Source: a virus. From it: a stretch of DNA of 25,960 nucleotides. Positions 5,617 to 18,211 of this stretch are shown here, piece by piece; the first letter of the stretch is position 1; the number at the start of each line of letters is the position of its first letter. Both the position numbers and the translations under genes were made by a program. The DNA lies in the IMG/VR virus record IMGVR_UViG_3300033571_029436, positions 1-25,960 of that record; one strand, 5' to 3'. The notes beneath the pieces were generated by a model. It was not told the origin of the DNA. It saw only the letters and a program-made list of their open reading frames with translations, and ran no database searches.

Positions 5617-6069
5617 ATGTACAAGACAACTTACAAAGGAAAATATAGAATAAACAATCCTAGGAAATATAAAGGCTTGATAAACGATGTAATTTACCGT
5701 AGTTCCTGGGAGTTAAAGTTTATGAAATGGTGCGATAATAACCCTTCGGTGTTAGAATGGGGTTCTGAAACTATGATTATTCCTTATCGATCACCTATAG
5801 ATAACAAATTACATCGCTACTTTGTAGATTTTTATATAAAAGTAAAAGACAAAGATGGGCAGACTACCAAATATCTTATAGAAATTAAACCAGAACGTTT
5901 TACTCAACCTCCCCCTATACCTCAAAGAAAAACTAAAAATTTTATAGAGGAGGTCTTTCAATATGGAACTAATCAAGCTAAATGGAAAGCAGCCAACAGT
6001 TATTGCGAGGACAGAGGCTGGAAGTTTATAATTTTAACTGAAAAAGATCTTGGTATATCTACGACATAA
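5617..6069 (+). CDS. 4: Head completion protein gp4
   Basis: A 150-residue protein, the usual gp4 length. Key pattern: YRSSWELKFMKWCDNNPSVLEWGSE near residues 28-50, then YFVDFYIKVKD and YLIEIKPERFTQPP. The E...D...E-x-K layout is a restriction-endonuclease-like (PD-(D/E)XK, TnsA-like) fold and is the known signature of gp4, which prepares the filled head for tail joining. It is the first gene of the rightward cluster, divergent from the baseplate genes. Its TAA stop lies inside the CATAAATA element that precedes the next gene. Confidence 0.88.
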   Translation: MYKTTYKGKYRINNPRKYKGLINDVIYRSSWELKFMKWCDNNPSVLEWGSETMIIPYRSPIDNKLHRYFVDFYIKVKDKDGQTTKYLIEIKPERFTQPPPIPQRKTKNFIEEVFQYGTNQAKWKAANSYCEDRGWKFIILTEKDLGISTT

Positions 6070-6076: not shown

Positions 6077-6637
6077 ATGGCTAATCCTTTTCTTAATATT
6101 CGTCAACAAGCTAGCGATACTGGGCGATCTCTTCAATGGTACCAGACACAAGTAAGATCGCTGGCCGCATTGAATCCAAATAAATTAATGTCTAATACAC
6201 CAGCGCTGGTAAATAATGTTTTACCTGGAAATATGTATATGTTTTTTTATGAAGCTAAACTTAAAGATCAACTTCCATATTATGACATGTTCCCGTTAGT
6301 GTTGCCGTTTAGAAAAGTAGCAAATGGTTTTTACGGTTTAAATTTACATTATATACCTTACGGTGCGCGATTTAAGATACTAGGGGCATTACATGAATTT
6401 GCTACTGATGAAAAAATCAATGAAGCTACACGTATAAAAATTTCTTGGAATATAGTTAAATCTTTTTCCGTTCTTAAGCCATTACAAGCTTGTGTAAAAC
6501 ATTATCTTACAGATCAGGTACAGAGTAGATTTTTACGTATAAATTACCCTGATTGGATTACAGCTTCTTTACTGCCTTTAGAGCGATTTAATGTAAACAA
6601 AACAACCGTCTGGAAAGACTCAAGAGAAAGATATTAA
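6077..6637 (+). CDS. Conserved T4-like virion protein of unknown function
   Basis: A 186-residue soluble protein with no signal peptide or membrane segment. The pattern GNMYMFFYEAKLKDQLPYYDMFPLVLPF followed by GFYGLNLHYIPYGARFKILGALHEF is familiar from T4-like phages of aquatic bacteria, but I cannot assign a firm name. It lies between gp4 and a tube-type protein and shares a TAATG overlap with the latter, so a structural or head-tail joining role is likely. In T4, gene 2 (DNA end protector) is next to gene 4, so a gp2-like role is a weak alternative. Confidence 0.7.
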   Translation: MANPFLNIRQQASDTGRSLQWYQTQVRSLAALNPNKLMSNTPALVNNVLPGNMYMFFYEAKLKDQLPYYDMFPLVLPFRKVANGFYGLNLHYIPYGARFKILGALHEFATDEKINEATRIKISWNIVKSFSVLKPLQACVKHYLTDQVQSRFLRINYPDWITASLLPLERFNVNKTTVWKDSRERY

Positions 6638-7323
6638 TGGCAGCTAATTTTAACTTATCTAAGTTTCAATCTGAAATTAGGAATAGAGGGCTAGCTAGAA
6701 CTAACCGATTTGAAGTTCTTATAAACCCACCTCCAGCGCTAGGTACTAATTATTTTTCTATCCTAGCTAGTATTTTTGTAGAACAAACTAGTTTTCCATT
6801 GTTTAACATTTCGGTTAAACCTTTTAAAATATTTGGTCCGGCTTATCAAAGGCCTATTACATCGGAATATGGTGGGGAGGGTATACCAGTTACTTTTCAT
6901 GTTGAAAGAGACATGAATATTAAAAGATTCTTTGATGATTGGATGCATGCTGTTGTACCAGATAATTTTCATTATGTAAACTATCAAGAAGAATATGTTG
7001 GTACTGTTAACTTGAGACAGCTAGATGAAGAAGAAAATGTAACTTATGAAATAGTTTTAGAAGAAGCTTTCCCAAGAAACATGAATTTAATAGAGTTAAA
7101 TAACTCTTCTACTAATCAAACTCATAGACTTAATGTTATATTTGCTTACAGAAAATGGCGTGACATTACAAAAACTCAAACTACCCCGGTTGATATACCA
7201 CGTTCTTTAATTACCCCTGAGCTGCCGGTCTTTGATTCTAGACCTGGGACGCAACGATGGAATTGGTCTACTGGTAATTTAGAACAAGGTACTTCAGGGT
7301 CTGATTTACCACCTTCAGCATAA
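6637..7323 (+). CDS. Tail tube protein, T4 gp19 type
   Basis: A 228-residue protein. The N-terminal LARTNRFEVLINPP, a middle YGGEGIPVTFHVERDMNIKRFFDDWMHAVV, and YNYQEEY-like and LEEAFPRNMNLIELNN stretches are the hallmark of the gp19/gpV tube fold, here ending in LNVIFAYRKW before a Pro/Thr-rich tail. It could be the main tail tube or a tube-like baseplate paralogue; the main tube gene normally sits next to the sheath gene gp18, which is not in this window. The start uses a TAATG overlap with the preceding gene. Confidence 0.75.
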   Translation: MAANFNLSKFQSEIRNRGLARTNRFEVLINPPPALGTNYFSILASIFVEQTSFPLFNISVKPFKIFGPAYQRPITSEYGGEGIPVTFHVERDMNIKRFFDDWMHAVVPDNFHYVNYQEEYVGTVNLRQLDEEENVTYEIVLEEAFPRNMNLIELNNSSTNQTHRLNVIFAYRKWRDITKTQTTPVDIPRSLITPELPVFDSRPGTQRWNWSTGNLEQGTSGSDLPPSA

Positions 7324-7343: not shown

Positions 7344-8039
7344 ATGGCTTTACCCAAGTTAGAAACACCTACTTATGAGTTGACGTTACCATCTACTGGT
7401 AAAAAAATAAAGTATAGACCTTTTTTAGTTAGAGAGCATAAGATACTCTTATCCATTACAGAACTTGATAATGACGAAATATCCAGAGTGGTAAAGGATG
7501 TTGTAGATGTATGTACCTTTAATCAATTAAATGTACATAGCCTTCCACATTTTGATATTGAGTACATATTTTTACATTTAAGAGCAAAGTCTATAAGTGA
7601 AAAAGTGGACCTTTTAATTAATTGCGAATGTGAAAATCAAATTGAAGTTTCTTTTAATATCGAAGATGTTAAGATAGAAAAAAATAACGACCATACTAAT
7701 AAAATTATGTTAACTGATGAGTATGGGGTAGAAATGAACTATCCTAAGTTTGACGATGTAATTGATCTATATTCGTCTATAACTCCTGATCTTGTTATTG
7801 ATCTTGTCATTAATAACATAAAAGGTATATTTAATAAAGACGGTTATTGGGATACTAATGATTATGATAAATCTGATGTAGAAGTTTTTGTTAATAGTTT
7901 AACTAAAGAGCAATTTGAAAAAATAGAAGAATTTTTTCTAACTGCCCCTAAAATTGTACACACCGTAGAAGCCGATTGTCCTAAATGCGGTAAACATAAC
8001 GTTTCAAGAATTCAAGGACTAAGTAATTTTTTCGTTTAA
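7344..8039 (+). CDS. 26: Baseplate hub assembly protein gp26 (short form of a gp26/gp51 frameshift pair)
   Basis: A 231-residue protein of the T4 gp26 type. It opens with LPKLETPTYELTLPSTGKKIKYRPFLVREHKILL, and has two Cys pairs, CEC at 94-96 and CPKC at 212-215, that could bind one zinc ion. It has a clear ribosome site (AGGAGATATT before the ATG). The last codons are AAT TTT TTC GTT TAA, containing the slippery heptamer T-TTT-TTC at 8027-8033. A -1 shift there leads straight into the gp51 frame and gives a 296-residue fusion. In siphophages, the short and frameshifted long chaperones G and GT lie just before the tape measure gene, as here. Confidence 0.85.
   Translation: MALPKLETPTYELTLPSTGKKIKYRPFLVREHKILLSITELDNDEISRVVKDVVDVCTFNQLNVHSLPHFDIEYIFLHLRAKSISEKVDLLINCECENQIEVSFNIEDVKIEKNNDHTNKIMLTDEYGVEMNYPKFDDVIDLYSSITPDLVIDLVINNIKGIFNKDGYWDTNDYDKSDVEVFVNSLTKEQFEKIEEFFLTAPKIVHTVEADCPKCGKHNVSRIQGLSNFFV
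8014..8033 (+). promoter_or_regulatory. Candidate programmed -1 frameshift site joining gp26 to gp51
   Basis: The heptamer TTTTTTC is in the correct frame (T-TTT-TTC) at 8027-8033, two codons before the gp26 stop. An AAGGA at 8014-8018 lies 8 nt upstream and could act as a stimulatory Shine-Dalgarno sequence. After a -1 slip the frame reads CGT TTA ACC and stays open for 66 codons through the gp51-like ORF to the TAA at 8231-8233. No strong downstream hairpin was seen. Confidence 0.7.
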
Positions 8040-8074
8040 CCCTTTCTCAGGATAATTTACAAAATTATTATGTT

Positions 8075-8233
8075 ATGAATTTTTCTCTAATGCATCATCA
8101 TAGATATAGTTTGACTGAATTAGAGAATATGATACCCTGGGAAAGGGAGGTTTACATAACGTTATTATCTGATTATATAAAACAAGAAAATGAAAGATTA
8201 AAAATGATTAATCAAACAGCAAAGTTTTTGTAA
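8075..8233 (+). CDS. 51: Baseplate hub assembly catalyst gp51-like; probably translated as a gp26 extension
   Basis: A 52-codon ORF from the ATG at 8075. The core is HHHRYSLTELENMIPWEREVY followed by LLSDYIKQENERLKM. A PWER(x)Y(x)xLL motif ending in a charged helix is typical of gp51 and of C-terminal domains of phage tail-assembly chaperones. There is no Shine-Dalgarno sequence before this ATG. The frame is open upstream to the slippery site at 8027-8033, adding 14 residues (RLTLSQDNLQNYYV), so fusion with gp26 by -1 frameshifting is the likeliest route. The next gene is the tape-measure-like protein. Confidence 0.75.
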   Translation: MNFSLMHHHRYSLTELENMIPWEREVYITLLSDYIKQENERLKMINQTAKFL

Positions 8234-8244
8234 GGTAAAAAATT

Positions 8245-10278
8245 ATGCAAGACGAGAATTTTAAAGAGTTTTTAAAAGGTCTTAATAACAAGACTACGGT
8301 TGATCTTGGCTTGCAAACTTTACAAGTAAAATATGATAGGGAAATGGCTGGGAAAGATAATGATAGAAGAGAAAATCAGCTCGAAGATATAAATAAAACC
8401 CTTGTTAGGATTGAAAACCTTGTTAAAATAAAAAAATCTTTGACTGGAAAGTCTAGCGTAGCCTTTAATAATTCGACTGCAGAAAAGCAGGCAGTTAAAG
8501 AAGGCTCTACTACCAATTCATTCTCTAATTTTTTTGAAGGATTTAATGAACGTAGAAATGAAATTGCAAGTTCTTTTACAGGTAAAAATCCGAGAGTTAA
8601 AGAAGAAACTTTAACTAAACAGTCAGAACAAGCAAATACTATTTTAGAAAAAGCAAATTTTTTACAAGAAGAACAACTTCAAAATCAAAAACTTCAATTA
8701 AAAGAATTTCAAAAATTTAATTTTAATTTAGAACCTTTAGGAGAAGCAATAGGTAAAATTGGTAATGATGTTACTAAAATTAAAGATAAACCAGTTCCTG
8801 TTGTTGAATCAGCGGCAGGTGGCGGATCAGCATTAGATGTGCTAGGTAGTGCTGGTAAGACGGGTATAGGTGCAAAATTAGCAGGTGGGTTTAAAGGTGC
8901 CATGGCGGGTGGAGGAGCTACAATTGCTACAGGTGCTGCTATGGTAGCAGCTCCTTTCGCTGTAGATGCAGGCCTTGGTGCTTTAGGTTTAGGAAAAAAA
9001 GAGATTGATGAAAAACAAGATAAAGCCAACTTTCAAAGAATGTCTTTCGGTGAAAAGGTTGAATCTGGTTTTGCAAGAGGTATAGAAAAGGTTGGTAGTT
9101 TGTTTGGTGGTAACATAACTAACGAAGCCCGGGCTAAACGCATTCAAAAAGAAACCGAATATCTTAATAAAAAAACTTCCGATAGTCAAAAACCTACTGT
9201 AGCAGGTGAAACATCAACTATAAGTCTTGCTACTTTTGCTCAGAATGATCCAAAGGGGTTTGAAGAGTATCAAAAATTTGTGCAAGACGAAATGGAAAAG
9301 GGTAAAAAACAAGTTGAAGAGGACTTTAAGTCTGGCAAGAAAAAAGGTGATAAAAAAGTCTTTATGGAAGACCTTGAAAGAAATGTAAAGAAGAAAGCAT
9401 TGGATAAGTTTAAAGATAAAATGATGGCTGCTGGCGCTATGGAAACCAAAACTAACATAAAAGGCGAAGCCAGAGGCAAAGACGGCACTAGTAAAGAAAT
9501 GAATGTTGATGAGATGAAAGCTATGAGACAGAAAATAGCTGACAAAGGACCAAGAACACAAAATCCACAATCCATTGAAACACATCAAGAAAAACTTCGT
9601 ACAATGGATATGGCCATTGCTGCTAAAGAAAAAGCAGGTGAGGATGTAACTGGCATGGGTTCTGATAGCGAATACAAGCCCGTAGATACAGGAAGCTTAA
9701 GACAAGGTCAACAAGGTCTAAAGGCTCAACATGAGCAGTTTATAAAAGATACTAAGCCTGCAAGAAGCGTTAAAGAAGAAGCTCCTAAGAAAACTATAGG
9801 CGAAAGAATAGCTAGCTTTTTTGGATTTGGCAAAGAAAAAACTTCAAAAGGCAATGATATATCTTCCACTAAAGAAAAAACGGCAGCAGCATATGACCTC
9901 CGTGATAGAGCCGCATTAGCAGCAAGCCAAGAAGTAGTCTCTCCTACCTCAGTTGACAAATCTAAAATGCATCCAATGGCTAGAAGACAGCTAGAAGATT
10001 TAGAAAAATACAACAAATCCAATCAACAAGCACAACAAGCTGAACTTGCAGCTAGCAATCGATCTAGTGCTTTAGCTCAACAAGTTGCTCAAGGCTCAGC
10101 TGAAAACGTTGCAATAAGAGATCAGATGTCTAATAAGCCTGTTACTACTCAACCGGTGGTATCTAATAACGTAAGTAATAATAATACCACGTCATATGTT
10201 CCAGTAAAAGCAGACCCAAGACCTATGCATCGAGGATCTGCTTTAGATAGGTACGTTGATAGAACGGCAGCTTATTAG
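8245..10278 (+). CDS. Tape measure / baseplate hub protein, gp29-like
   Basis: A 677-residue protein, the largest complete gene here. It is mostly charged helix (Lys, Glu, Gln, Ala), predicted coiled coil around residues 120-165 and 330-400. The middle (about 190-250) holds a Gly/Ala-rich hydrophobic stretch (KLAGGFKGAMAGGGATIATG and MVAAPFAVDAGLGALGLG), the sort of membrane-active segment found in tape measure proteins. The C-terminus is Gln/Asn/Ser-rich. Position directly after the gp26/gp51 chaperones supports a tape measure role; T4 gp29 has 590 residues and a 100-nm tail, so this one would suit a slightly longer tail. No motif proves it. AAGG lies 10 nt before the ATG. Confidence 0.65.
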   Translation: MQDENFKEFLKGLNNKTTVDLGLQTLQVKYDREMAGKDNDRRENQLEDINKTLVRIENLVKIKKSLTGKSSVAFNNSTAEKQAVKEGSTTNSFSNFFEGFNERRNEIASSFTGKNPRVKEETLTKQSEQANTILEKANFLQEEQLQNQKLQLKEFQKFNFNLEPLGEAIGKIGNDVTKIKDKPVPVVESAAGGGSALDVLGSAGKTGIGAKLAGGFKGAMAGGGATIATGAAMVAAPFAVDAGLGALGLGKKEIDEKQDKANFQRMSFGEKVESGFARGIEKVGSLFGGNITNEARAKRIQKETEYLNKKTSDSQKPTVAGETSTISLATFAQNDPKGFEEYQKFVQDEMEKGKKQVEEDFKSGKKKGDKKVFMEDLERNVKKKALDKFKDKMMAAGAMETKTNIKGEARGKDGTSKEMNVDEMKAMRQKIADKGPRTQNPQSIETHQEKLRTMDMAIAAKEKAGEDVTGMGSDSEYKPVDTGSLRQGQQGLKAQHEQFIKDTKPARSVKEEAPKKTIGERIASFFGFGKEKTSKGNDISSTKEKTAAAYDLRDRAALAASQEVVSPTSVDKSKMHPMARRQLEDLEKYNKSNQQAQQAELAASNRSSALAQQVAQGSAENVAIRDQMSNKPVTTQPVVSNNVSNNNTTSYVPVKADPRPMHRGSALDRYVDRTAAY

Positions 10279-13919: not shown

Positions 13920-14035
13920 ATAAATCTCCAAAGTTTAAGTTTAACTGCACAAATTTAGCTCGTTACCTTAAAGCAATCCAAAGTCAAGAAAGCTTGACGG
14001 GTGTTGCATCTGGTTTTTACTCACTAAAAAATTTT

Positions 14036-14072
14036 TCGGCTCTTTGGGTAATAAGGAAGAGCCGAAAACCCC
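14036..14072 (-). other. tmRNA pseudoknot after the tag, ending in a U-run
   Basis: TCGGCTCTT (14065-14057) pairs with AAGAGCCGA (14044-14036), while GGGG (14072-14069) can pair with CCC in the loop (14048-14046). This makes an H-type pseudoknot as expected downstream of the tag. Four A and then six T (14031-14026) follow, so the same stem may also end transcription. Confidence 0.7.
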
Positions 14073-14082
14073 ATCTTACTGT

Positions 14083-14115
14083 TTAGGCAGCAAGAGCAAA
14101 ACGTTCATCGTTTGC
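14083..14115 (-). other. tmRNA proteolysis tag ORF, ANDERFALAA
   Basis: Reading from the GCA resume codon at 14115: GCA AAC GAT GAA CGT TTT GCT CTT GCT GCC TAA. The encoded tag ends in ALAA, the signal for ClpXP-type proteases, and closely resembles the E. coli tag (ANDENYALAA) and betaproteobacterial tags. It differs from cyanobacterial tags, which end in PVAA. Confidence 0.95.
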
Positions 14116-14213
14116 GTTTACTTTGTTTCACTTTTAACGTCTATCTGGTGACGGACCGTCTGTCTTTTTACTCACTGCCCTGTCGAAACCATGACTGGCC
14201 CATCATAAACATA

Positions 14214-14261
14214 CTATTGAACGTTGTCATGTATCCATTTCCAATATTCTTCAACTGACAT
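14214..14261 (-). CDS. Micro-ORF within the tmRNA intervening segment
   Basis: An AGGAG lies 5 nt before an ATG and opens a 15-codon frame, MSVEEYWKWIHDNVQ, ending in TAG. It fills 48 of the 80 nt between the mature CCA end (14282) and the mature coding-half 5' end (14201). The peptide is aromatic and acidic, with no match I know. In other permuted tmRNAs this segment is removed during processing, so translation would have to happen on the precursor. It may be chance, but the ribosome site is as good as any in the window. Confidence 0.4.
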   Translation of the reverse strand: MSVEEYWKWIHDNVQ

Positions 14262-14362
14262 AGTTACTCCTAATTTGTTTATGGTGGACCAGGCGGGAGT
14301 CGAACCCGCGTCCAGAACACTTTTCGATCAACATCATACGATCATATTAAATTATAATATAT

Positions 14363-14698
14363 TTATTTATAATTGCTACGTGACTTTGCTGGTTGAAAAT
14401 CTTCACCTGCTGCAATTAAACAAAAAATATTTTCTTTTGAAATTTCTACAAAAGTCCATGATTTAGTATCTGGGTTCACAAACAGTACAAAACTATTACT
14501 ATAGGATGTATCATTGTTTATAAGCCTATCGCTTTTACCTTTAGCAAAAGCTTTTTCTCCATGGGAAGCAACTGCTTTAGAAACATTATCTACTTGCTTT
14601 GTACATACTACAGGAAGTTCAAGTAAAAATCCTTCTGAATAAACTGGCAAGGTTAAAAAACAAGCGGCGATAAAAAGAAAAGTTTTTATAATGTTCAT
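14363..14698 (-). CDS. Secreted or periplasmic protein of unknown function
   Basis: A 111-residue protein. Residues 1-21 (MNIIKTFLFIAACFLTLPVY) form a signal peptide with likely cleavage near YSEG. The mature domain of about 90 residues has two cysteines (VVCTK and NIFCLI) that may form a disulfide bond, and a beta-rich centre (SFVLFVNPDTKSWTFVEI). I do not recognise the family. It is the gene just before the tmRNA, and the late promoter of the tmRNA overlaps its stop. There is no ribosome site; a promoter -10 lies 6 nt before the ATG. Confidence 0.7.
   Translation of the reverse strand: MNIIKTFLFIAACFLTLPVYSEGFLLELPVVCTKQVDNVSKAVASHGEKAFAKGKSDRLINNDTSYSNSFVLFVNPDTKSWTFVEISKENIFCLIAAGEDFQPAKSRSNYK
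14364..14371 (-). promoter_or_regulatory. T4-type late promoter (TATAAATA) for the tmRNA
   Basis: A perfect TATAAATA overlaps the last codons and stop (TAT AAA TAA) of the 111-residue gene. By T4 geometry the start would be near 14358, just before the tmRNA acceptor half. A further TATAAT-like element lies a few bases downstream (TATTATAAT), so host polymerase might also start here. Confidence 0.6.
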
Positions 14699-15863: not shown

Positions 15864-17387
15864 TTATACTCCTATTTTTTCTAATACGTTTTTGTTAAAT
15901 AATTCACTATACTTATAGTTAGAATTCTTTTTCGCTTGAATGGTTTTCTCAGCAATAATATATAGTTCTTCTATACTAAAATTATGTATTTTTTGGCAGA
16001 ATTCTAACTCTTTTTTGACTATTTCCTCAGGAAATTTATTAAGGCCCCATAAAATATAACTCCACAGCCCCCATCCAGGATGACCAATATAATTTAAAAA
16101 ATCTCTTGAGGTAGGTAGTTTAGATTTACATGTTTCTAAGATATTAATTACTTTTTCAGTTTTAGTACTTCCTTCACTAATAAATTTCCAAAACGGTGTA
16201 TCTGTTCTTCCACCCATGTAATGTATTACGAGAAAATCTCTTATATCGTCATAAAGCATAGACATACGCTGATTGTAAATATTTTTTGACCCGGTATTCA
16301 TGGTCTGCTCTTTTGTATCTTTTATTCGTTCATACACCAGATCGTGTATCTGAACAATAGTGGAATGTATGGATTGTGCTTCTAAGGGCTCGGTAAAAGC
16401 AGCACAAAGCCCTATAGCTACCGTATTGTTTTTCCACATATCTTTTTGTCTACCAGAAACAAATTTAATTAGACCTCTAGATTCAATTTTTCTACCAAGT
16501 TTAGATTCTAATTCACGTATTGCTTGCTCGGGTGTTATAAATTTATCACAAAAAACATACCCCATTCCTTTTCTATTTTGAAGAGGAATGCACCACATCC
16601 AACCTGCGTCCATGGCAGTAGCTTGTGTAAAGGGGTCAGGGGTTTCTCCCTCTTCATACTCTAACCAAAATGGAATAGCAGAATTTACCGGAAGGTTTTG
16701 GCTATAATCAACCCATTCACTATTAAGTTTGGACATTAAAACTTTTTTAAAACCGGAAGCATCTACAAAAAAATCACCATTTACTACCTCATTACTAGAA
16801 AGCCTTATTGAACTAATATCCCCGGTACTGTCTAGAAAAATATCTTCTACCTCACTATCAAAATACTTAAAATTAGTTTGTGTTTGAAGTACCTCTTTAA
16901 TGTATTTACCAAACTCATATGTATCTATATGAAATGCAAAATTTATATTTTCTAAGTTATTGGTATCTTTGTTTACAGGAGATAGATCTTCTTCAATAAA
17001 GGTACCTAAAAAACTTGAAAGATGTTGAGTTTCTGGATCAAATAAACAATGCCCATAAGCTAAAGCATAATCTGGAACTAGCTCCGATGTTAAGCTCCCA
17101 TCAATAGGGGCTATAAATGTATTACCGTTAGCTGACCAATTAACAAATTTAATTCCATATTTTAATGTAGCATTACATTGACGAATAAACTTATGAATGT
17201 CACAACCGAAATTATGATAAGAGTTAGATAAAATACCCGTAAGTAAGCCTGTAGTGCTTTCCCCTACCCCTATTATTCCTAATTTTGATGATTCAATTAA
17301 AGTGACGGTATGATTTGTATGTACTTTAGAGATCATTAAGGCGGCGATCCAACCAGCTGTACCGCCGCCTACAATAACAATGTTCAT
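15864..17387 (-). CDS. Flavin-dependent tryptophan halogenase-like protein
   Basis: A 507-residue protein, the usual length of the family. FAD site: IVIVGGGTAGW (3-13) and GIIGVGEST (37-45). Halogenase signature WxWxIP at 263-268 (WMWCIP), catalytic Lys at 80 in YGIKFVNW, and EPLE at 333-336 near the expected catalytic Glu. All key residues of PrnA/RebH-like enzymes are present, so it should be active with FADH2, halide and oxygen. Substrate unknown: free tryptophan is not assured, as the characterised cyanophage halogenase VirX1 iodinates many aromatic substrates. Overlaps the phoH stop at its start (ATGA), so co-translation is likely. No partner flavin reductase is seen in the window. Confidence 0.9.
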   Translation of the reverse strand: MNIVIVGGGTAGWIAALMISKVHTNHTVTLIESSKLGIIGVGESTTGLLTGILSNSYHNFGCDIHKFIRQCNATLKYGIKFVNWSANGNTFIAPIDGSLTSELVPDYALAYGHCLFDPETQHLSSFLGTFIEEDLSPVNKDTNNLENINFAFHIDTYEFGKYIKEVLQTQTNFKYFDSEVEDIFLDSTGDISSIRLSSNEVVNGDFFVDASGFKKVLMSKLNSEWVDYSQNLPVNSAIPFWLEYEEGETPDPFTQATAMDAGWMWCIPLQNRKGMGYVFCDKFITPEQAIRELESKLGRKIESRGLIKFVSGRQKDMWKNNTVAIGLCAAFTEPLEAQSIHSTIVQIHDLVYERIKDTKEQTMNTGSKNIYNQRMSMLYDDIRDFLVIHYMGGRTDTPFWKFISEGSTKTEKVINILETCKSKLPTSRDFLNYIGHPGWGLWSYILWGLNKFPEEIVKKELEFCQKIHNFSIEELYIIAEKTIQAKKNSNYKYSELFNKNVLEKIGV

Positions 17388-18130
17388 GCGCTATATTGTT
17401 CCTCGTATTTCATCCTTGCTATAATGTATTCTTTTACTAAATTGGATCTAACAATATCATTAACTTCAAATTCAATGGTCTTCATTGAGGGCATCATATC
17501 AGCAATAACCATAAATTTTCTCAGACCTGACATATCTTGTTTTTTATAAAGGTCCGTCTGTCTAAAGTCACCGCAAAAAATTATCTTACTTCTGTCTCCT
17601 ACTCTAGTTATTATACTGTTAATTTCCATATCAGTCATGTTTTGGCACTCATCTACTATTATAATAGAATCATCTAGTGTAATGCCACGTACGAATGACG
17701 TAATCATAAATTGTATGGCGCCTTGTTCTAATAATCTTTGATACGCATCTTTTTTATTAAAGAGATTAGAACAAATTTCTACATAAGGTTGCTGATAAAC
17801 TTCGGTTTTTTCTTTTTCATCTCCAGGTAAGTAACCTATTTCTCTAGAGGGTACTGCTGATCGAACTATTACCACTTTGCTATATGTTGTTGACTTATCT
17901 AATACTTCTTCCAATGCTCGATAAAGGGCAATGTAAGTTTTACCTGTGCCTGCTACCCCATGCAGAAGCATTAAAATGGATGTTTTGTATTGCTCAAAAA
18001 ATCTCCTTTGGTTATCAGTTAATGGACTTATTGTCGTAAGATCTTCAATTTTTACTTTTAGTTTATTATTAATTAGCGTTACTGTAGGTTGTTCAAAAAC
18101 CTGCGGTAGTGAAGATGCTTTTCGCGCCAT
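17384..18130 (-). CDS. phoH: PhoH-like ATPase
   Basis: A 248-residue protein from the ATG at 18130, selected because GAGG lies upstream and the longer in-frame start at 18196 would run through a terminator hairpin. After a short basic N-terminus there is the PhoH P-loop LHGVAGTGKT (residues 56-65), VRSAVPSREIGYLPGD, Walker B SIIIVDEC (155-162) and CGDFRQTD. PhoH is a P-loop NTPase common in aquatic phages; a link to phosphate stress or RNA metabolism is proposed but not settled. The halogenase starts at its stop codon. Confidence 0.92.
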   Translation of the reverse strand: MARKASSLPQVFEQPTVTLINNKLKVKIEDLTTISPLTDNQRRFFEQYKTSILMLLHGVAGTGKTYIALYRALEEVLDKSTTYSKVVIVRSAVPSREIGYLPGDEKEKTEVYQQPYVEICSNLFNKKDAYQRLLEQGAIQFMITSFVRGITLDDSIIIVDECQNMTDMEINSIITRVGDRSKIIFCGDFRQTDLYKKQDMSGLRKFMVIADMMPSMKTIEFEVNDIVRSNLVKEYIIARMKYEEQYSA

Positions 18131-18148
18131 ATTTTCCTCTTTAAAAAC

Positions 18149-18181
18149 AAAAGGGGAATCAGTAGCTACTGTCCCCCTTTT
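18149..18181 (-). terminator. Rho-independent terminator (bidirectional) before phoH
   Basis: AAAGGGG and CCCCTTT flank an inner palindrome CAGTAGCTACTG, giving a long stem. On the minus strand it is followed by TTTTGTTTTT, and on the plus strand the stem runs into TTTTT. On the minus strand it would stop transcription from the gene ending at 18212, and as part of the phoH leader it may also act as an attenuator. Confidence 0.75.
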
Positions 18182-18211
18182 TAAAAAACACAACAAACGT
18201 TTTTATGTTTG

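Follow-up and report, generated by a model that had tools for sequence, protein, structure and literature searches.

The window analysed here is the whole of the 25,960-base record IMGVR_UViG_3300033571_029436, a fragment of an uncultured virus. It carries a run of T4-like genes in which gp26 is followed by a gp51 reading frame and then by a gene for a 677-aa protein (Table 1). Elsewhere in the window, the T4 gp5-type hub/lysozyme family phrog_430 matches two neighbouring ORFs on the minus strand (2-2627). One of them (1548-2627) matches near the start of the family, and the other (2-1546), which is cut by the window end, matches further on. Two adjacent ORFs matching successive parts of phrog_430 suggest that the hub gene is split or rearranged. 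A tryptophan-halogenase-like protein is encoded at 15864-17387 on the minus strand (phrog_2928, E 1.8e-103) and is adjoined by a PhoH-like gene (17384-18196). At 13992-14393, again on the minus strand, ARAGORN calls a permuted tmRNA with the tag ANDERFALAA. Rfam matches it with tmRNA_permuted (134.6 bits) and beta_tmRNA (130.5 bits), each over the full model, which hints at a betaproteobacterial host.

Table 1. Features of the gp26-gp51 locus and its surroundings in the window.
Feature	Position	Strand	Remarks
Head closure gene	5617-6069		T4-like neighbour
DNA end protector gene	6077-6637		T4-like neighbour
Tail tube gene	6637-7323		T4-like neighbour
gp26	7344-8039	+	231 aa, 0 frame; proposed short tail assembly chaperone
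SD-like AAGGA	8014-8018	+	8 nt upstream of heptamer; candidate frameshift stimulator
Slippery heptamer T_TTT_TTC	8027-8033	+	in register with gp26
gp26 stop TAA	8037-8039	+	one codon past heptamer
gp51 extension	8033-8233	+	-1 frame, as it would be read after the shift; 66 aa
677-aa protein	8245-10278	+	tape-measure position; putative identity
gp32-like single-strand binding protein	after the 677-aa gene	opposite

The gp26 gene ends with AGT AAT TTT TTC GTT TAA. The initial annotation had proposed that gp26 and gp51 are joined here by a -1 frameshift, and the window sequence bears out its details: the heptamer is in register, AAGGA lies at the claimed distance, and the -1 frame runs open through the gp51 ORF. 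This frame is closed by a TAA at 8024-8026, then stays open over 8027-8230 up to a stop at 8231-8233. Since the gp26 frame has its own stop just past the heptamer, 8027-8036 is the only stretch in which a -1 shift could connect the two frames. Read from 8033, the -1 frame gives RLTLSQDNLQ...AKFL, so that the predicted long form consists of gp26 residues 1-230 plus 66 aa, that is 296 residues. The first ATG, GTG or TTG of the -1 frame is the ATG at 8075. The nearest AGGA (8049-8052) lies 22 nt upstream of it, so there is no SD at a usable distance, in agreement with the claim that gp51 lacks a ribosome site of its own.

We collected related loci from viral contigs, 80 by a gp26 search and 80 by the -1-frame peptide, with one locus common to both and some contigs occurring in both sets, and added 20 loci of named phages. 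The relatives are not independent samples, and L083-L161 were retrieved by the -1-frame sequence itself. Among 162 sequences, gp51 lies in the -1 frame in all 158 that hold both parts. When the loci retrieved by gp26 alone were considered (n = 80), gp51 was present in 77 and in the -1 frame in 77/77. The other three (L011, L060 and L068) hold no gp51, and their contigs stop at or soon after the gp26 end, with 51 and 46 bases remaining past the gp26 match in L060 and L068, respectively.

Seven T4-type sequences were set aside from the total of 180, and L166 and L154 gave no gp26 match; 146 distinct junctions remained after removal of duplicates. Aligning them, we found an in-phase T_TTT_TTN heptamer in 145 of the 146 (136 TTC, 8 TTT and 1 TTA), with exactly one sense codon between heptamer and stop in 136/145. 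The sole junction without it, L011, has a gp26 match that stops at residue 221, at the contig end and before the site, and its reading frame breaks earlier than the heptamer position. L166 (phiM9), inspected by eye, reads TCT TTT TTG CTC TGA with an open -1 frame. The -1 frame is open for 57-71 codons in 142/143 junctions; in the +1 frame, 45 codons are reached in only 1/143. By frame, gp51 lies in -1 in 142 of the 146 junctions and in +1 in one (S-SCSM1, L173), and was not found in three.

In S-SCSM1 the -1 frame stops after 4 codons, just past 2975, and about 8-10 extra bases after the gp26 stop place gp51 in the +1 frame. S-B05 aligns to it over 253 bases where the S-SCSM1 region has 261. 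Searched as an exact pattern, the insertion was not found in viral contigs and is therefore perhaps erroneous or private to this phage. S-SCSM1 may have truly lost the -1 arrangement, may shift in another way, or may carry an error.

The heptamer is conserved at the nucleotide level. In the 145 junctions, which were selected as heptamer-bearing (a selection that left out L011 only), the third bases of TTT and of the codon before it are T in 145/145, and only these two of 231 well-filled columns reach 100% third-base identity. The residue before TTT varies (S 61, N 54, D 21, A 9). Elsewhere in the same genes, T-ending codons are used at 0.35-0.81 depending on the residue, and TTT makes up 0.74 of Phe codons. 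Taking 24 clusters at 50% identity, the joint chance of the fixed wobble bases is log10 P = -6.5. For the stretch from the shift to the usual first ATG, the -1 frame has pN 0.36 and pS 0.84, a pS too high for a corrected ratio to be given; the other two frames of the same stretch have pN > pS.

We then looked at candidate stimulators. In 107/145 junctions the heptamer is preceded, at 4-14 nt, by an SD-like stretch, compared with 2107 of 29033 in-phase control sites (7.3%), and the spacing of this stretch to the heptamer is nearly always 8 or 10 nt. A conserved Glu-Gly partly encodes this stretch. The Glu before Gly is GAG in 75/108 cases versus 26% of Glu codons elsewhere, and this excess argues that the G-rich stretch is kept beyond the need of the protein.

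Downstream of the heptamer, a hairpin beats synonymous recodings (z < -2) in 69 of 130 distinct segments, while control stretches reach this level in 4/130 and 7/130. After grouping at 70% gp26 identity, the hairpin is present in most members of 20/53 clusters. Its registers differ, and RNAalifold found no consensus structure over all 130 segments. A named stem of 11 pairs, beginning 6 nt after the heptamer, forms at least 8 of its pairs in 38/130 segments. On 75 rows picked by hand from the 130 segments, this stem exceeded 500/500 shuffles in cells paired, cells changed on both sides and covariation score; the covariation score and the cells paired both peaked at slide 0. On the same rows, the pairs changed on both sides (reached by 250/500 shuffles) and the further pair types (232/500) were not distinct from shuffles. 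In L151, L042, L050 and others, a strong hairpin lies 6-36 nt past the heptamer, its sequence changed and the hairpin kept. The idea that the SD-like element and the hairpin substitute for each other was dropped, as the two occur independently (Fisher p = 1).

A downstream hairpin in the window itself was likewise rejected. It scored z 0.14 against synonymous recodings and z 0.96 against shuffles, a separate calculation gave z 0.66 and 1.19, and only 4 of the 11 stem pairs form. Among the 26 segments at least 50% identical in gp26 to the window, the window included, 8 have a hairpin. Thus, AAGGA is the only visible stimulator in the window.

Could gp51 instead be a separate gene, with translation starting at ATG 8075 or resuming past the gp26 stop by reinitiation? 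The records of HTVC008M, P-HM1 and Melnitz annotate it separately, the gp26 stop of KVP40 overlaps an ATG, and 47/142 relatives have their first ATG at codon four past the shift, which makes separate or coupled translation possible in those 47. Looking for homologues that contradict a shift, we found the heptamer kept, the frame kept except in S-SCSM1, and an SD before the first possible gp51 start in only 4/142, against 54/134 for gp26 under the same rule. Moreover, the conservation extends upstream of the first start, towards the heptamer. In the AlphaFold2 model of the extension (pLDDT 87), counting the frame from 8030, the first helix spans residues 10-23 and ATG 8075 is residue 16; a start there would cut this predicted helix. 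A separate gene also leaves the kept heptamer and its wobble bases unexplained, and we consider it very improbable. The annotated gp51 genes of HTVC008M (L165, 4052-4189), Melnitz (L171, 3763-3906) and Mosig (L174, 3058-3192) begin at a downstream ATG and omit the conserved residues between heptamer and ATG.

The frames might also be joined by RNA polymerase slipping on the T run, and not by the ribosome. A run of at least six T is indeed present in 145/146 junctions, and T_TTT_TTT in 8/145. In 136/145, however, the run is six T broken by C, and a six-T run is short for polymerase slippage. Such slippage would, in addition, need neither the SD-like element nor the downstream hairpin. We give this explanation hardly any credence.

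The gp26 protein matches Pfam PF12322 (E 1.7e-62, profile 1-218 of 219) and phrog_150 (E 5.3e-67), and the gp51 extension matches phrog_634 and columns 232-278 of phrog_150. The latter family therefore holds both parts end to end, with the gp26 of the window at columns 5-232 and gp51 at 232-278. The Pfam and PHROGs matches of gp26 include no chaperone family of the lambda type. In VIA-align, the top two of 999 chains for the AlphaFold2 model of gp26 (pLDDT 87) are the HK97 tail assembly chaperone 2ob9 (Z 7.3, over 84 residues at 4.0 A) and YqbN 3klu (Z 6.5), both at Z < 8, a range where chance arrangements occur. YqbN is a chaperone relative. The chaperone-like part of the model comprises residues 1-88. 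Foldseek of the gp26 model found no PDB match at E <= 0.001, and with Z < 8 the fold of gp26 alone is no proof. At the same limit, 57 predicted viral structures match the gp26 model; they mostly carry baseplate hub subunit or hub assembly chaperone names, and a few are gp51-like. The fold search of the gp51 domain returned nothing at E <= 0.001, and the sequence search against solved structures gave no credible relative. Weak matches of gp51 to Stealth_CR2 and prolyl hydroxylase fell below the cut-off and were taken as chance.

Pfam, PHROGs and NCBIfam yielded no family for the 677-aa protein at the limits applied, and its blastp against eight similarly placed genes and a part of T4 gp29 gave nothing significant. 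In HTVC008M the gene two places past gp51 is labelled by its submitter 'putative tail tape measure'; blastp of the 677-aa protein against it gave E 0.44, which is not significant. From its place and size, it is plausible that the 677-aa gene encodes the tape measure.

A further alternative is that gp26 and gp51 act not as chaperones but as ordinary components or catalysts of the baseplate hub, a reading under which the frameshift may still occur. The T4 annotation names a baseplate hub and a hub assembly protein, and genetic studies cited in a T4 review support a hub containing gp26 (PMC3004832), which fits a chaperone role less well. The cited passage of the same review nonetheless lists gp26 and gp51 as hub assembly chaperones, with gp51 absent from the final particle (PMC3004832). 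Against hub parts also speak the predicted chaperone-like fold of gp26 and the retention of the long form as a fusion in the T4 type. We regard hub parts or catalysts as unlikely.

We compared the window with seven T4-type phages, hand-picked from 1339 phage records matching T4 gp51. The statement that T4 has separate genes 26 and 51 is correct: they lie on opposite strands, so T4 needs no shift there. The two T4 proteins are paralogous (blastp E 8e-6; hhalign probability 99.3% between the seven gp26 and the seven gp51). A fusion profile of 297 positions with the junction near 235 matches the chosen T4-type gp51 in 7/7, with alignments crossing the junction. It matches the T4-type gp26 in 7/7 as well, but 0/7 cross the junction and none extends past position 236. 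An extension profile finds the C-termini of 7/7 T4-type gp51 (E 7e-12 to 7e-4), whereas none of the seven T4-type gp26 is matched below E 0.6; the E-values of both profiles apply to a search of 14 sequences. For these profile comparisons hhalign gave 99.5% and 99.7%. Because T4-type gp51 matches the fusion across the junction, T4 gp51 is, judged by these alignments, the naturally fused counterpart of the product that frameshifting would give in the window.

None of the seven T4-type phages has T_TTT_TTN near the gp26 end; T4 and QL01 gp26 keep the FF residues as TTC TTT. The T4 type has two genes, with 51 first and adjacent in EC-F2 and KM3, while the window has one candidate frameshift pair. 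KVP40 and AsFcp_1 have the frameshift arrangement, and their records place both in T4's family. An ancestral shift would place the switch to two genes inside this family. We lean towards a T4-like common ancestor that made both chaperones by -1 frameshifting of one gene, as many relatives would still do. In the lineage of T4, a doubling of this gene would have yielded the short gene 26 and the permanently fused gene 51, with the heptamer lost from the former. Living frameshifting relatives would use the upstream SD-like element, and about half of those sampled also the covarying downstream hairpin.

Taken together, we read gp26 as the short tail assembly chaperone and gp26-51 as the long one, the latter produced by ribosomes shifting to the -1 frame as in lambda G/GT, with a probability of about 0.9. 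According to this reading, gp26 and gp51 would be one gene with two products. Most ribosomes would stop at the gp26 stop and yield the short chaperone. Some would slip back by one base on T_TTT_TTC, with AAGGA 8 nt upstream helping, and would add a helical domain of 66 residues to give the long chaperone of 296 residues. If the pair works like lambda gpG/gpGT, binding of the tape measure protein would fall to the short form and recruitment of tail tube subunits to the long one. Slippage and its frequency, the part that AAGGA plays in it here, and the function as chaperones are what we infer, whereas the conserved heptamer and frame, the missing gp51 start signal, the enriched SD-like element and the colinearity of T4-type gp51 are read from the sequences themselves.

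The gp51 peptide matches 576 phage records, and many carry the name 'baseplate hub assembly catalyst' or are called hypothetical proteins. If they work as we read the window, these names mask the long product of a frameshifted tail assembly chaperone gene, and the separate gp51 start sites are annotation artefacts.

The initial annotation also saw a link between T4 hub assembly proteins and the tail chaperone frameshift. The link stands, with gp26 as the short form and gp51 as the long fusion, but it is already published. Vladimirov et al. in 2022 reportedly found frameshifting conserved in several T4-like groups, with T4 using genes 26 and 51. In passages of two later papers that cite Vladimirov, Gautam and Davidson (2022, Virology 566:9-15), some T4-like phages are described as having a short and a fused long TAC gene instead of frameshifting (PMC10885494), and poly-T signals as known -1 shift sites in T4-like TAC-N genes (PMC12846349). 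The window has the same poly-T arrangement as these published T4-like TAC genes. By these passages, a frameshifted chaperone is already in print for T4-like phages, and the window adds a well-supported case to a known phenomenon. In the same passages we find nothing on an SD-like stretch, on a hairpin or on T4-type gp26 having lost its heptamer. These three points may be new detail; the short-plus-fused arrangement is published.

Among known phages, KVP40, AsFcp_1, pelagiphages, cyanophages, phiM9, pf16 and Milchi resemble the window in having gp26 followed by gp51 in the -1 frame and a poly-T heptamer. The heptamer is T_TTT_TTG in phiM9 and T_TTT_TTT in pf16, and T_TTT_TTC in the window. S-SCSM1 has a heptamer like the window, but its -1 frame is not open. 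Lambda slips on G_GGA_AAG. The gp26 protein is larger than its lambda counterpart, and only residues 1-88 of its model are chaperone-like. In the arrangement of its frames, the window is like lambda gpG/gpGT, where a short form and a long form extended by a -1 frameshift are made (PMC5009743); the cited part of this 2016 review calls the shift widely conserved 'except T4'. The TAC of Vandenendeviridae and Andersonviridae is described with a -1 shift near the TAC-N end, upstream of the tape measure gene (PMC12846349). Their motif is GTTTTT, unlike the T_TTT_TTC of the window, and the likeness noted here is one of arrangement. The T4 pair would offer the natural comparison with the window: slippage in one and gene doubling in the other, for making the same two proteins.
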